Source: a virus. Taken from it: 29,473 bases of DNA. The translations under genes were made by a program, and so were the position numbers. Under the pieces are notes generated by a model. It made no database searches and was not told the DNA's origin. It worked only from the letters and a program-made list of their open reading frames with translations. Where the stretch lies: positions 1 through 29,473 of IMG/VR virus record IMGVR_UViG_3300020477_000093, one strand, 5' to 3'. Below, piece after piece: positions 3,263-27,278 of the stretch (the stretch's first letter is position 1; the number at the start of each line of letters is the position of its first letter).

Positions 3263-4405
3263 ATGAAAAAAGGTCGTTCTAAGGCTTTCTTTATTAATGG
3301 TGGCGCTGGAAGAGTAATATGTTCTATACCTGCATTTGAAAAATATGCAAAAGATTCTGGTGATAAAAATTTTGTAATTGTCTGTGAAGGCGGAATGGAC
3401 TTCTACCGAGGTCATCCTGTCTTACAAAAACACTCATACGAAGTATGGCATAAAGGTCTTTTCGACCAACATCTCCGCGATAAAGATATCGTAACTCCAG
3501 AGCCATACAGAATCAACGAATATTTCAATCAAAAATGTTCTCTTGCTCAAGCATTTGATATCGAAATCAATGGTCTTGATAAGCCTAGAGAATTACCTCC
3601 CACTTCCATCACTCTCAATAAGATGGAATCAGTTACTGGATATCAAGCGATTCAGCAAATCAAATCCCAATTAAACAAAGACAAAGCACTTATTGTTCAG
3701 CCATTTGGTAGGTCTGTAACCCAAGTAGGAGAATATTTAATTGACGGCACTTCAAGATCCTTTGAAGTACAGAATATAATCAATATTATTGATGGTCTCC
3801 GTAAGTTTTATGCAGTAATTGTAATGGCGGATCTTGCACTTCCTATTCCAGAAAATAAAGAAGCACCAGTTGCAATGCCCAGAGAACCCAATCTAAGATT
3901 GTGGGCTTCTATGATAAATTCCGCAGACCATTTCTTGGGATGTGATTCTGTTGGACAGCATATGGCAAAAGCACTTGGTAAAACCGCTACTGTAGTTATT
4001 GGTTCTACTGTACCAATTAATATTTCTTATCCTAATGATGATAATATTGACATTATAGATATTGGAAAAGAAAATGGAAGAGATTATGCTCCTATTAGAC
4101 TCACTATGGATGATGAGAAAGATAGGGCGAATGATGGTTCAATGATGCTAACTGAAGAACAAGAGCTACGGGTTATCGATTCGTGTATAGAATATTTAGG
4201 CGAAGGAAAGGGATTTCAAGGAAGATTTATTCCTACCGGACATACTCAAAGTTGTTCAATGCACAATCCTACTGAAGAAGCAATTAAAGAATCTAAATAT
4301 GATTTCAAAGCGGAAAATCTTTTAGCAGATTCTAACAAAGATAAAAACGCTACTATTGAACCGTTTGGAAAAGTTGAGCCTTACGAAGTGAAAGTGAATG
4401 AGTGA
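3263..4405 (+). CDS. GT9/heptosyltransferase-like glycosyltransferase
   Basis: 380 residues from the ATG at 3263, chosen over the GTG at 3260 because GAGG at 3252-3255 is 7 nt from the ATG. The N-terminus (FFINGGAGRVICSIPAFEKY) looks like the nucleotide-sugar transferase opening of family GT9, where a glycine-rich loop is followed by a P-A helix. The C-terminal half (about residues 210-250) has the block ADHFLGCDSVGQHMAKALGK, then VVIGST, which resembles the GT9 donor-binding stretch with an invariant acidic residue and H-AxALG. Proteins of this family transfer L,D-heptose from ADP-heptose to LPS. The last 50 residues are charged and unmatched. Heptose specificity is inferred from the HldD-like gene in the same cassette. 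First gene after a strong promoter; its stop overlaps the carbamoyltransferase remnant. Confidence 0.6.
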   Translation: MKKGRSKAFFINGGAGRVICSIPAFEKYAKDSGDKNFVIVCEGGMDFYRGHPVLQKHSYEVWHKGLFDQHLRDKDIVTPEPYRINEYFNQKCSLAQAFDIEINGLDKPRELPPTSITLNKMESVTGYQAIQQIKSQLNKDKALIVQPFGRSVTQVGEYLIDGTSRSFEVQNIINIIDGLRKFYAVIVMADLALPIPENKEAPVAMPREPNLRLWASMINSADHFLGCDSVGQHMAKALGKTATVVIGSTVPINISYPNDDNIDIIDIGKENGRDYAPIRLTMDDEKDRANDGSMMLTEEQELRVIDSCIEYLGEGKGFQGRFIPTGHTQSCSMHNPTEEAIKESKYDFKAENLLADSNKDKNATIEPFGKVEPYEVKVNE

Positions 4406-8886: not shown

Positions 8887-8894
8887 TATAAATA
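8887..8894 (+). promoter_or_regulatory. T4-type late promoter box
   Basis: Exact TATAAATA in the intergenic region upstream of the holin-like gene. The predicted start is near 8900. It would be recognised by the gp55-type sigma encoded at 26658. Confidence 0.6.
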
Positions 8895-8922: not shown

Positions 8923-8930
8923 TATTTATA
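8923..8930 (-). promoter_or_regulatory. T4-type late promoter box for the minus-strand pair
   Basis: Exact TATAAATA read on the minus strand. The predicted start is near 8917, about 44 nt before the ATG at 8873. It points toward the plus-strand box at 8887. Confidence 0.6.
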
Positions 8931-14357: not shown

Positions 14358-14365
14358 TATAAATA
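14358..14365 (+). promoter_or_regulatory. T4-type late promoter for the tail sheath gene
   Basis: Exact TATAAATA, 130 nt before the gp18 ATG. The predicted transcript starts near 14371, directly at a short ATG frame (14372-14449, 25 codons). The rest of the 5' leader holds nothing else that I recognise, apart from the sheath RBS TAGGAG. Confidence 0.8.
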
Positions 14366-14495
14366 GTTACAATGGTAGAAGGAGATAGTCTTTTCCCTCG
14401 AACCTCATCGGAATTATCGCATAATAATTCAATAACGGTAAAACGATAGGGGTAAACCATAATTTGAACATCTATTTTAATATAGGAGAAAAACG

Positions 14496-16216: not shown

Positions 16217-16735
16217 ATGAACGTTGCAGATTTTGGAAAACAATATTCGGGTGACTACGCACGTCCTAATTTATTTAAGGTAAATATTGCCCAAATAGAT
16301 TCAGAAATGTGGATTAAAACTGCTTCACTTCCAGCAACTACTGTTGGAGTAGTAGAAGTTCCTTACCAGAACCGCAAATTAAAGGTTCCTGGTGACAGAA
16401 CATTCGCAGATTGGACAGCCACAGTAATTAACGATGAATCATATGTCGTTAGGAGTGCATTGTTATCTTGGCAAGAAGCCATAACCGGATTCACCAGTAT
16501 GGCATCTACAATGGGAGTTTCGACTGCCCATAGAAAGATAGAAATTCAACCTCTCAAACGAGATGGTTCCAATGATACACATATAGTAAATGTGTATGGC
16601 TGGCCGTCTGAGATAGGTGCGATTGATCTTTCTTGGGAGACTGTTGATGCTGTCCAGGAATATACTGTTACATTTACAGTATCTTGGGATGACGGTGGTG
16701 TTGACTCGGAAAAAGTAGACGTTTTAGCGGCATAA
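16217..16735 (+). CDS. gp19: Tail tube protein gp19
   Basis: 172 residues. DYARPNLFKVNIAQIDSEMWIKTASLPATTVG, VEVPYQNRKLKVPGDRTFADWTATVINDESYVVRSALLSWQEAI, and the closing YTVTFTVSWDDGG are typical of the gp19 tube subunit. Strong RBS TAGGAGG, 8 nt after the sheath stop, so both are made together from the same late transcript. Confidence 0.9.
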   Translation: MNVADFGKQYSGDYARPNLFKVNIAQIDSEMWIKTASLPATTVGVVEVPYQNRKLKVPGDRTFADWTATVINDESYVVRSALLSWQEAITGFTSMASTMGVSTAHRKIEIQPLKRDGSNDTHIVNVYGWPSEIGAIDLSWETVDAVQEYTVTFTVSWDDGGVDSEKVDVLAA

Positions 16736-21472: not shown

Positions 21473-22675
21473 ATGTTTTTATCAGAAGAAATTAAAGATA
21501 AGTGGCAGCCAGTTATGGAGCACGAAGATCTCCCAAAGATCGATGATGCTACCAAACGTGCGATAACACTTCGTCTTTTAGAAAATCAAGAAAAGGCTTT
21601 GCAAGAAGCCAATGTTACAGGTGCTAACGTAGACAATTGGGATCCAATTCTCATTTCGTTGGTACGCAGAACTATGCCTCAGTTAATGGCGTATGATACT
21701 ATTGGAGTCCAGCCTATGTCCGGACCTACTGGTCTCATTTTCGCTATGAAATCACACTATACTGGCGAAGCCAGCACAGGTGCTGAAGCATTAACAACTG
21801 CCGCTGGTCAACCCGATGTCGATTTCTCAGGGAATGACGGTGCAACTCCAGCCACTACTACTTACGCTACGTCCGACGGCGAAGCATTAGGTGGATTTGT
21901 TGCAAGTGGTGGAGCATTCAAAGAAATGTCTTTCTCAATCGAGAAGTCAAGCGTAACAGCCGCTACTCGTGCATTGAAAGCAAAGTATTCTTTGGAACTC
22001 GCACAAGACCTTAAGGCTATCCATGGATTGGATGCTGAGTCAGAATTAAGCAACATTTTGTCTGCTGAAATTCTTGCTGAGATCAATCGTGAAGTTATCG
22101 AGAAAATTCTTTCTCAAGCGACTGCAGGAGCAGCCGCTGGAACAACTACTTCCGGAACATTTGACGTTGCAGATTCCACTGATAACAGAGGAGCACGTTG
22201 GGGTGGTGAGCGTTACAAGTCACTATTGATTCAAATCAACCGTGAAGCTAACTTAATTGCTAAGAATACCGGCCGTGGTGCTGGTAACTGGTTGCTTGTA
22301 AGTCCAGATGTTGCATCTGCACTTGATATGGTTGCCGGATTAGCAGTTCCTAATATGGATGTTGGATCAGGAAATCCAATAGACCAGTCGAAAAGCGTTT
22401 TCGCTGGTACTCTCGGTGGAAAATATAAAGTTTTCATTGACCAATTTGCTTCCAGCGATAGTGTAACTGTCGGATATAAGGGATCAAATATGTACGATGC
22501 AGGGCTTTTCTACTGTCCATACGTACCGCTTCAATTGATGAAATCAATTGGTGAGGAAGACTTTCAGCCACGTTTGGGATTCAAGACTCGTTACGGTCTT
22601 ACTCATAACCCATTCGCTTCTGGAAGTGATGCGGCTAATCCGTACTTCCGAAAGTTTACTGTTGCAAATCTGTAA
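21473..22675 (+). CDS. gp23: Major capsid protein gp23
   Basis: 400 residues. The N-terminal ITLRLLENQEKALQEANVTG contains L-x-E sites for gp21 cleavage. After them come NWDPILISLVRRTMPQLMAYDTIGVQPMSGPTGLIFAM, DLKAIHGLDAESELSNILSAEILAEINREVI and RYGLTHNPFA, all gp23 hallmarks. It is shorter than T4 gp23 (521), in line with compact marine T4-like capsids. The gp24 vertex paralogue is not in this window. RBS AGGAGA; a strong terminator lies 60 nt after its stop. Confidence 0.95.
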   Translation: MFLSEEIKDKWQPVMEHEDLPKIDDATKRAITLRLLENQEKALQEANVTGANVDNWDPILISLVRRTMPQLMAYDTIGVQPMSGPTGLIFAMKSHYTGEASTGAEALTTAAGQPDVDFSGNDGATPATTTYATSDGEALGGFVASGGAFKEMSFSIEKSSVTAATRALKAKYSLELAQDLKAIHGLDAESELSNILSAEILAEINREVIEKILSQATAGAAAGTTTSGTFDVADSTDNRGARWGGERYKSLLIQINREANLIAKNTGRGAGNWLLVSPDVASALDMVAGLAVPNMDVGSGNPIDQSKSVFAGTLGGKYKVFIDQFASSDSVTVGYKGSNMYDAGLFYCPYVPLQLMKSIGEEDFQPRLGFKTRYGLTHNPFASGSDAANPYFRKFTVANL

Positions 22676-22737: not shown

Positions 22738-22772
22738 AAGCCCCGTAATCTTAATAAGATACGGGGCTTTTT
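22738..22772 (+). terminator. Rho-independent terminator after the capsid gene
   Basis: The stem AAGCCCCGT/ACGGGGCTT continues inward as ATCTT/AAGAT around a 3-nt loop, and ends in TTTTT at 22768-22772. It is the strongest terminator in the window. Confidence 0.95.
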
Positions 22773-22789
22773 ATATTGTAGTGAAGTGA

Positions 22790-22797
22790 TATAAATA
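22790..22797 (+). promoter_or_regulatory. T4-type late promoter just before the gp3-like gene
   Basis: Exact TATAAATA, only 5 nt before the ATG at 22803. With the usual late-promoter geometry, the transcript would begin at or next to the A of the ATG. No Shine-Dalgarno is possible on such an RNA (see findings). Confidence 0.75.
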
Positions 22798-22802
22798 ATA
22801 GT

Positions 22803-23312
22803 ATGGCACAACAAGAACGACTATCCCCAGGGAAAATTAATTTAGCCAAGTCAACGAACTATAGGCTAAACATACATATGTTACCAAACGTACAGTTTTG
22901 GTTAACTACGTGTAATCTTCCTACCTTTTCCGTAAATGAGGTTCCAATTCCTGATCCTGTTCACGGATATAGATATAAATCAACGAATACTTCAACAATA
23001 GCTCCAATGACAGTCACATTCCTTGTGGATGAAGACTATCAAAATTATATGGAAATTTTAGATTTAATGTACAAAGCGGCTGGACCAGACCTATCTAAGA
23101 GATATAAAGAAGGAGAGGTGACGGGTTCAGACGGAAGTATACACGTTCTGTCTAATAACAAAAATATTTCTGATGTAGTATTCACATTTCACAATCTTTT
23201 TCCTACTATTCTAGGAGAACTCCAGATGACCAACGAATCAGCAGAACCGTTGCTCACGGATTTAACAATGCAATATGATTATATGACATATCAGAGAGGA
23301 ACTCCTCTCTAA
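22803..23312 (+). CDS. gp3: Tail-tube-fold protein, probably gp3-like tail completion protein
   Basis: 169 residues. NYRLNIHMLPNVQFWLTTCNLPTFSVNEVPIPDPVHGYRY, then MTVTFLVDEDYQNYMEILDLM, has the same pattern as gp19 (slot for ASLP, then a V-x-F-x-x-DE-x-Y strand), so it belongs to the tail-tube fold. In marine T4-like genomes the gene right after 23 is usually gene 3 (tail completion/sheath stabiliser), which is why gp3 is preferred over a gp19 or gp54 paralogue. There is no Shine-Dalgarno before the ATG; a late promoter abuts it. It lies alone between two promoters. Confidence 0.55.
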   Translation: MAQQERLSPGKINLAKSTNYRLNIHMLPNVQFWLTTCNLPTFSVNEVPIPDPVHGYRYKSTNTSTIAPMTVTFLVDEDYQNYMEILDLMYKAAGPDLSKRYKEGEVTGSDGSIHVLSNNKNISDVVFTFHNLFPTILGELQMTNESAEPLLTDLTMQYDYMTYQRGTPL

Positions 23313-23320
23313 AAAAAGAC

Positions 23321-23349
23321 TTGACATTTGAATTGAAGTAGTTTATAAT
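23321..23349 (+). promoter_or_regulatory. Perfect sigma70-type promoter of the uvsY-uvsW operon
   Basis: TTGACA at 23321-23326, a 17-nt spacer, and TATAAT at 23344-23349, preceded by AAAAAAAGAC. The expected start is near 23356, 2 nt before the uvsY ATG. It switches from late to early/middle-type expression at the head/recombination boundary. Confidence 0.9.
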
Positions 23350-23357
23350 GGTTCACT

Positions 23358-23765
23358 ATGAAAATTGAAGAACTAGAAAAATTAGTAGAAAAAGACCTCT
23401 ATATTGACGAAACAATCCTCGCCAAAGAGTCTCTTTTAACTCCTACCAAGCACAATAAGTATCTAAAGATGCTATTGAGGGAACGATTGAAGTTAAAGCA
23501 ACTTCAAAATGAACTCAATAAAGTATCTCTAGGTAGGACTTGTTATTATAATGGTTCAGATCCTGATCCTTATGAATATGTCCTCAAAGATCGAGAGGTC
23601 AAAGACTATGTTAAGGTAGATCCAGTTGTGATGGAAGCAGAAGCAAAAGTGGCTTTGCAAGACGAAACAGTTAAATATCTTGAAGAAGTCTGTAAAATGT
23701 TTGACAAACGTGGATTTGCTATAAAGAATGCAATCGACTTTATGAAATTTACGGAGGGCGGATGA
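23358..23765 (+). CDS. uvsY: Recombination mediator UvsY
   Basis: 135 residues (T4 UvsY has 137). MKIEELEKLVEKDLYIDETIL at the start, LGRTCYYNGS with a D-rich loop in the middle, and DKRGFAIKNAIDFMKFTEGG at the end line up with T4 UvsY. It loads the UvsX recombinase on gp32-coated ssDNA. No Shine-Dalgarno precedes the ATG (GGTTCACT), and the promoter -10 box ends 8 nt before it, so the mRNA is probably leaderless. The stop overlaps the next start (ATGA). Confidence 0.9.
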   Translation: MKIEELEKLVEKDLYIDETILAKESLLTPTKHNKYLKMLLRERLKLKQLQNELNKVSLGRTCYYNGSDPDPYEYVLKDREVKDYVKVDPVVMEAEAKVALQDETVKYLEEVCKMFDKRGFAIKNAIDFMKFTEGG

Positions 23766-26657: not shown

Positions 26658-27278
26658 ATGGCTAAGAATGATCAAAAAGAACCAGTTGATTTAGATAACC
26701 CAACTCACTACATCAATAATAAGGATTTTCTACAGGCTATCATAGATTATCAAAAAGAAATCAAAGAAGCCAAGAAAGCTGGTAAATCAAAACCTTATGT
26801 TAGTGATTATATTGCTATGTGTTTCCTACAGATAGCACAAAGACTTTCCTATAGACCAAATTTTATTAACTACACATATAAAGATGATATGATATCGGAC
26901 GGTCTAGAAAATTGTCTGGCTTATATGCACAATTTCAATCCTTCGAAGAGCAAAAATCCTTTTGCTTATTTTACACAAATAATATATTACGCATTTTTAC
27001 GAAGAATCCAGAAGGAGAAGAAACAACAATATATTAAGTATAAAGTATATACCGAACATCAACAGGAGATTGAAGATGAACACGAAAAACTTTCTCCCGA
27101 TTTCATCAATGAAAAGGGATCTGCCGATTTTCATATTCATATAAAAGAGTTTATAGACGAAATGGAACGAAAAGAGAAAGAGAAGAAACAGAAACGAGAA
27201 CAGAAGAAAGCCGAGAGGGAAAGCAAAATACAAATAGAATCTACTCCTGAAAACAATCTTGAATTCTGGATGCAATGA
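26658..27278 (+). CDS. gp55: Late-transcription sigma factor gp55
   Basis: 206 residues. The central part (about 46-118: YIAMCFLQIAQRLSYRPNF, DDMISDGLENCLAYMHNFNPSKSKNPFAYFTQIIYYAFLRRI) is the minimal sigma region-2 fold of T4 gp55, which recruits host core polymerase to TATAAATA late promoters. Residues 155-195 are a Lys/Glu linker. The C-terminus (ENNLEFWMQ) has the hydrophobic-acidic character of the gp55 motif that docks on the gp45 sliding clamp (inference). It has no clear Shine-Dalgarno. Its stop overlaps the start of gene 47 (ATGA). Confidence 0.9.
   Translation: MAKNDQKEPVDLDNPTHYINNKDFLQAIIDYQKEIKEAKKAGKSKPYVSDYIAMCFLQIAQRLSYRPNFINYTYKDDMISDGLENCLAYMHNFNPSKSKNPFAYFTQIIYYAFLRRIQKEKKQQYIKYKVYTEHQQEIEDEHEKLSPDFINEKGSADFHIHIKEFIDEMERKEKEKKQKREQKKAERESKIQIESTPENNLEFWMQ

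Follow-up and report, generated by a model that had tools for sequence, protein, structure and literature searches.

A T4-Type Late Promoter Held at a Fixed Distance from the Start Codon Predicts a Leaderless mRNA for a gp3-like Tail Gene in Marine T4-like Phages

Introduction

Leaderless mRNAs are usually regarded as a minor mode of translation initiation among bacteria using Shine-Dalgarno (SD) sites. A phage example is the leaderless cI mRNA of lambda, transcribed from PRM. In the usual geometry of sigma70 promoters, 6 nt following TATAAT set the transcription start (+1) on the A of an ATG.

Late promoters of phage T4, which depend on gp55, gp33 and gp45, carry an 8-bp box that is placed at positions −13 to −6 in one account (PMC1524935) and approximately one helical turn 5' of the transcription start in another (PMC2988020). 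Furthermore, a paper on phage AR9 remarks in passing, citing Brock 2008, that phage transcripts are often leaderless (PMC5312081); this remark lowers the novelty of a leaderless phage mRNA, not that of a conserved late-promoter spacing. A coupling of T4-type late promoters to leaderless mRNAs was not found among the matches listed in literature searches, which covered titles and beginnings of abstracts, mostly of papers available without subscription. In the papers describing the phages Mosig and Melnitz, the word "leaderless" occurs once each, inside a cited title.

The DNA analyzed here, referred to as the window, comprises 29,473 nt (positions 1 to 29,473 of the IMG/VR virus record IMGVR_UViG_3300020477_000093). 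It carries the same 8-bp box as the T4 late promoters and also encodes a gp55 homologue.

Results

The following features of the window are relevant for the gp3-like locus:

21473–22675, + strand: gene 23-like major head protein, upstream neighbour (phrog_138, E 3e-136; SD sequence AGGAG)
22738–22769, + strand: stem-loop of an intrinsic terminator downstream of gene 23, with a T run behind it (−19 kcal/mol, z −4.2)
22790–22797, + strand: T4-type late promoter box, TATAAATA (exact match; fixed spacing kept in relatives)
22798–22802, + strand: box-to-ATG spacer ATAGT, 5 nt (−5 to −1 if the T4 geometry holds)
22803–23312, + strand: gp3-like tail gene, 169 codons (phrog_45 tail tube, E 9e-26; synteny)
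26658–27278, + strand: gp55-like late sigma factor, presumed to recognize the late box (phrog_234 late sigma, E 2e-59)

The gp3-like protein is a member of the tail-tube family phrog_45 encoded beside uvsY, and its comparison with Pfam yielded nothing above the cut-off. The gene order g23–gp3–uvsY is common to the window, Melnitz and Mosig, and P-HM1 shows the order gp3–uvsY–uvsW. A separate gp19-like gene is located at position 16217 of the window (Pfam gp19, a match below the curated threshold). The gene at 22803–23312 is therefore better named gp3-like, although synteny alone sets gp3, the tail tube terminator, apart from other tube-family proteins.

Upstream of this late structural gene, the late box matches TATAAATA with zero mismatches and is followed by exactly 5 nt and the ATG at 22803–22805, as stated in the original prediction. 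With the box at −13 to −6 and the 5 nt filling −5 to −1, the A of the ATG (22803) becomes the predicted +1; the earlier assignment of +1 to or beside this base by T4 geometry thus agrees with the box position given for T4 (PMC1524935), and the promoter would place +1 at the start codon or no more than a few bases from it. The predicted 5' end of the gp3 mRNA shows nothing special in terms of structure (z 0.57). The expected cognate sigma factor is encoded in the window itself, its gp55-like protein being identical to T4 gp55 at 40% of 127 aligned positions. A strong terminator upstream of the box had also been proposed, and the stem-loop with its T run listed above corresponds to it; it is absent from the output of a simple scan, presumably owing to its bulge. 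The number of boxes in the window is ordinary (82 matches with at most one mismatch vs. 75 expected). Chance placement of the box was rejected because its 5-nt distance to the ATG is held in relatives, and not because the box is frequent.

In order to compare this spacing, 83 gp3-like loci from two scans (L001–L036 and L070–L116) were considered, the second scan representing the best 80 of a longer list, so that the sample consists of near relatives. Loci with the gene start off the contig (L036, L096 and L106) were excluded from the count, as was a distant outgroup of ten loci (L107–L116) that is reported separately; the remaining 70 loci and the window gave 71 sequences. Among the listed loci, identity to the gp3-like protein of the window ranged from 52 to 96%. 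The distance between box and ATG was 5 nt in 64 of the 71 listed sequences, 8 nt in three (L032, L073 and L074), and the box was displaced in four. This comparison, which the original prediction had suggested as a check, was strongly favourable. After clustering at 90% protein identity, the 5-nt spacing was retained in 26 of 30 representatives, with two representatives each for the 8-nt spacing and the displaced box. The set contains 36 distinct contexts and 17 spacer sequences (15 of 5 nt and 2 of 8 nt), all of which end in a pyrimidine, and an SD sequence between box and ATG is absent from the listed gp3 sequences. In a tree with long branches and unsure joins, sequences with the 5-nt spacing fell on either side of the midpoint root.

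In the four displaced loci (L018, L019, L029 and L031), the box starts 104 nt before the gp3 ATG. The unit of box, 5 nt and ATG is retained there and opens an inserted 40-aa ORF overlapping the start of gp3 by 32 nt; gp3 may therefore be translated through coupling to this ORF. Among the distant relatives L107–L116, GGAGG was found shortly 5' of the start in 7 of 10; the start of L112 is ambiguous, and L114 and L115 begin with TTG.

Based on these results, we consider it probable that the locus represents a conserved module, its late promoter fixing the translation start of a leaderless gp3 mRNA as well. RNA polymerase carrying the phage gp55-like sigma factor would open the promoter at the box at 22790–22797, and RNA synthesis would begin at 22803. 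The resulting mRNA would start with AUG, having neither a leader nor an SD site, and, as with known leaderless mRNAs, the ribosome would have to initiate at the AUG of its 5' end. Since a shift of the box by a single base would already lengthen or shorten the mRNA at this end, the spacing would be under selection. The exact +1, the late timing of transcription and leaderless initiation at gp3 are inferred from this arrangement. The original leaderless reading of gp3 is thereby supported as far as sequence data reach, the mRNA itself being a predicted one.

Late promoters were also inspected in six records of related phages (G001–G006). Distances between late box and gene were 5, 5, 5, 5, 5, 6, 8 and 8 nt, followed by values from 11 to 189 nt. 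The short-distance group (5–8 nt) consists of gp3 in all six records, a gp4-like gene in G001, and a gene of G006 that we take to be gp31-like from its N-terminus. Position 6 after the box is an A in 26 of 38 boxes located more than 9 nt from their gene, which is consistent with a T4-like +1 in these records. Moreover, the exact pattern TATAAATA-N5-ATG occurs at 7 sites in G001–G006 vs. 0 for the reversed pattern. Counts for the looser pattern TATAAATA-N4-9-ATG in eight records (25 vs. 13 reversed, with controls equalling or exceeding it in two records) are weak evidence.

G001, the closest large relative of the window, has gp3 at 5 nt, gp4 at 6 nt and one more gene 8 nt from a CATAAATA box. 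The gp4-like gene encodes a head closure protein (phrog_218), and its scan was confined to the best 80 loci, i.e., near relatives. In the 13 nearest loci (identity 64–81%), its late box lies at 6 nt in 11 and at 7 and 8 nt in one each. Among the other 67 loci, TATAAATA was found at 5 nt in three and a variant box at 5 nt in one, and in the rest the box is 25–37 nt off or none was found.

Further late boxes were observed in passing. In G001 (contig C1, approximately 4275–4290; locus L121), the palindrome TATTTATATAAATA comprises two divergent late boxes that overlap each other, one of them 6 nt from the gp4-like gene. In the window, the late promoter of the sheath gene (14358–14374), also present in G001–G003, G005 and G006, has an ATG 5–7 nt after the box; where checked, this ATG opens only a short frame of 3–25 codons, a possible leaderless mini-ORF. 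Two further TATAAATA boxes lie on opposite strands (8887–8894 and 8923–8930), flanked by a holin-like gene and a divergent ORF.

Among cultured pelagiphages, gp3 is preceded by ACTAAATA-N5-ATG in HTVC008M and by GATAAATA-N5-ATG in Mosig. As in the window, box, 5 nt and ATG are thus joined at gp3; in both phages, the same arrangement was also found at the DNA end protector gene (gp2-like), and in HTVC008M at the head closure gene (gp4-like) and others. Genome-wide, HTVC008M contains 13 HTAAATA-N5-ATG sites, 12 of which are annotated gene starts (gp010, gp014, gp019, gp020, gp025, gp026, gp027, gp053, gp063, gp092, gp093 and gp190), whereas G001 has only gp3, gp4 (at 6 nt) and the one gene at 8 nt. 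In Mosig, 7 of 10 such sites are annotated gene starts; for Melnitz, P-HM1, C48C1 and T4, sites were assessed by gene calling only. Called genes with the box at exactly 5 nt numbered 11 in HTVC008M, 6 in Mosig, 3 in Melnitz, 1 each in G001 and P-HM1, and 0 in T4 and C48C1. In Melnitz, gp3 as annotated is not leaderless, since by visual inspection the ATG at 5 nt opens an 8-codon frame overlapping the gp3 start.

Several controls were applied to these counts. Sites at 5 nt compared with the reversed pattern as 13 to 3 in HTVC008M, 10 to 2 in Mosig, 8 to 2 in T4, 5 to 2 in Melnitz, 3 to 2 in P-HM1 and 1 to 1 in C48C1. At 6 nt, no excess over the reversed control was obtained for Mosig (5 vs. 8), and little was found in the other genomes. 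The 11 called genes of HTVC008M at exactly 5 nt, with 0 at 4 or 6 nt, compare with a shuffle mean of 0.32 and a maximum of 2. Three permuted motifs gave 3, 3 and 4 genes at 4–9 nt in HTVC008M vs. 14 for the box; two of the original five, ATAAAT[ACT] and [ACT]TATAAA, were dropped post hoc, as they overlap the true motif, and the shuffle and the reversed pattern at 5 nt were used in place of permuted motifs.

T4 was considered as a precedent for fusion of box and ATG and was rejected: none of its four exact TATAAATA-N2-12-ATG matches (seven for the reversed control) is an annotated gene start. Furthermore, 34 called T4 genes have an [ACT]TAAATA box within 63 nt, none of them at 5 nt and the nearest at 9 nt.

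Downstream of gp3, a second promoter of a different type is located close to a start codon:

23321–23349, + strand: sigma70 promoter of uvsY, TTGACA-17-TATAAT (12 of 12 consensus matches)
23358–23765, + strand: uvsY-like gene, second near-leaderless candidate (phrog_231, E 4e-33; Pfam UvsY, E 6e-23)

In the window, 8 nt lie between TATAAT and the ATG at 23358. The promoter was scored in 55 of the 71 listed sequences, window included, with distances of 6 nt in 40, 7 nt in 12 and 8 nt in 3. As to the 16 unscored rows, four contigs end first, nine have no uvsY start within 400 nt (in three of these that were inspected, a different gene with leader and SD follows the promoter), and the remaining three have a weak −35 element, yet show TATAAT-N6-ATG. 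A leader of about 2 nt is predicted for uvsY of the window and of 0 nt for the 40 sequences with 6 nt. Two adjacent leaderless candidates served by two polymerase forms had been proposed: the two forms are supported by sequence (sigma70 promoter at uvsY in 55 of 55 scored sequences, late box at gp3 and an encoded gp55-like sigma factor), and gp3 retains its status, but uvsY of the window is only near-leaderless. In G001 (contig C1, 88578 and 105329), consensus sigma70 promoters were observed 9 nt before the ATGs of the DNA polymerase and primase genes, predicting leaders of about 3 nt.

Such short leaders bear on gp3 as well. Transcription could start 1–4 bases off the ATG, leaving a leader of 1–4 nt that the ribosome handles as leaderless; leaders of 1–3 nt would follow from the 8-nt spacings at uvsY of the window and at gp3 of three loci and from the 6-nt spacing prevailing at gp4-like. 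For gp3 we regard this as unlikely, since the predominance of 5 nt in the listed sequences and the spike at this distance in HTVC008M argue for a single fixed +1.

SD-like energies of at most −5 were obtained for 52% (G001) and 62% (window) of the called genes, compared to 20% of random sites in each. Since about half or more of the genes carry SD-like sites, leaderless starts look like the exception rather than the rule in this phage. The gp3 gene of the window itself received an SD-scan score of −5.9, originating from bases in or just 5' of the box and hence outside the predicted mRNA. An SD-like purine run abuts the box upstream in the window (22776–22789) and in relatives, approximately 16 nt from the ATG. 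The median duplex energy of this run is −3.85 in 32 gp3 contexts vs. −0.6 at 24 boxes of G001, and it might serve a leadered read-through mRNA. If so, the translated gp3 mRNA could be a leadered read-through product of the gene 22–23 unit, with the box being of minor importance. Many contexts in the subclade of the window show the run, in line with this scenario, which nevertheless appears quite improbable: a strong terminator precedes the box, the run is distant from the ATG and largely absent from the second subclade despite an unchanged 5-nt spacing there, and it fails to explain the conserved spacing.

The DNA further upstream differs among relatives, with dissimilar hairpins and inserted ORFs, while the unit of box and ATG is kept. 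In L015–L017 (68 codons) and L035 (75 codons), a small ORF lies between hairpin and box and the spacing is still 5 nt, so that a terminator beside the box is not required for the pattern. The same small ORF occurs in L020, but this contig stops short of any hairpin; in all five loci, the stop codon TAA of the ORF falls within the TATAAATA box.

An ATG near +1 was also found at other late promoters: at 2 of the 38 more distant boxes of G001–G006, an ATG follows at exactly 5 nt though the main gene lies further on, which suggests that promoter composition somewhat favours ATG there. That only promoter DNA is conserved at gp3, with the ATG reflecting base preference and the gene beginning elsewhere, is nevertheless hardly credible, since, in the 67 sequences with 5 or 8 nt, the conserved reading frame begins at this in-frame ATG, and the window's next in-frame ATG (codon 26) is methionine in only 4 of the 64 sequences with 5 nt (otherwise L, V, P, I, A, D or S). 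No alternative in-frame ATG is common to the set, none occurring within the next 39 codons in 39 of the 71 sequences.

Discussion

Judged from the sequences compared, the observation is not limited to a single site but extends to a putative conserved promoter–start codon module at several genes of marine T4-like phages. The distance between the sigma factor's box and the ATG appears to be selected across many phages and reused repeatedly in cultured pelagiphages. We lean slightly towards a broader interpretation, in which box, 5 nt and ATG form a portable, genome-wide module in marine pelagiphage-like relatives of T4. Here, the sigma factor rather than an SD site would pick translation starts, giving about a dozen leaderless genes; the module would capture inserted ORFs, as in L018, and uvsY would behave likewise with the host sigma70. 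The HTVC008M genes concerned encode gp2-like, gp3, gp4-like, baseplate, tape-measure and some metabolic proteins.

If correct, promoter recognition would be directly linked to start-codon choice, and phage gene starts would be predictable from promoter geometry. HTVC008M or Mosig on HTCC1062 offers a cultured system for asking why ribosome-binding sites would be shed late in infection.

In comparison with known systems, the locus shares its box and a gp55 homologue with T4, which, unlike the window, has no annotated gene start 2–12 nt from an exact TATAAATA. Like bacterial leaderless mRNAs, e.g., those reported for mycobacteria (PMC4633059), the predicted gp3 mRNA has a 5'-terminal AUG without an SD site. 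In contrast to these, a phage late sigma factor would set the start here, its box fixing +1; the spacing is maintained in many phage relatives, and SD-like sites are present on roughly half or more of the other genes.
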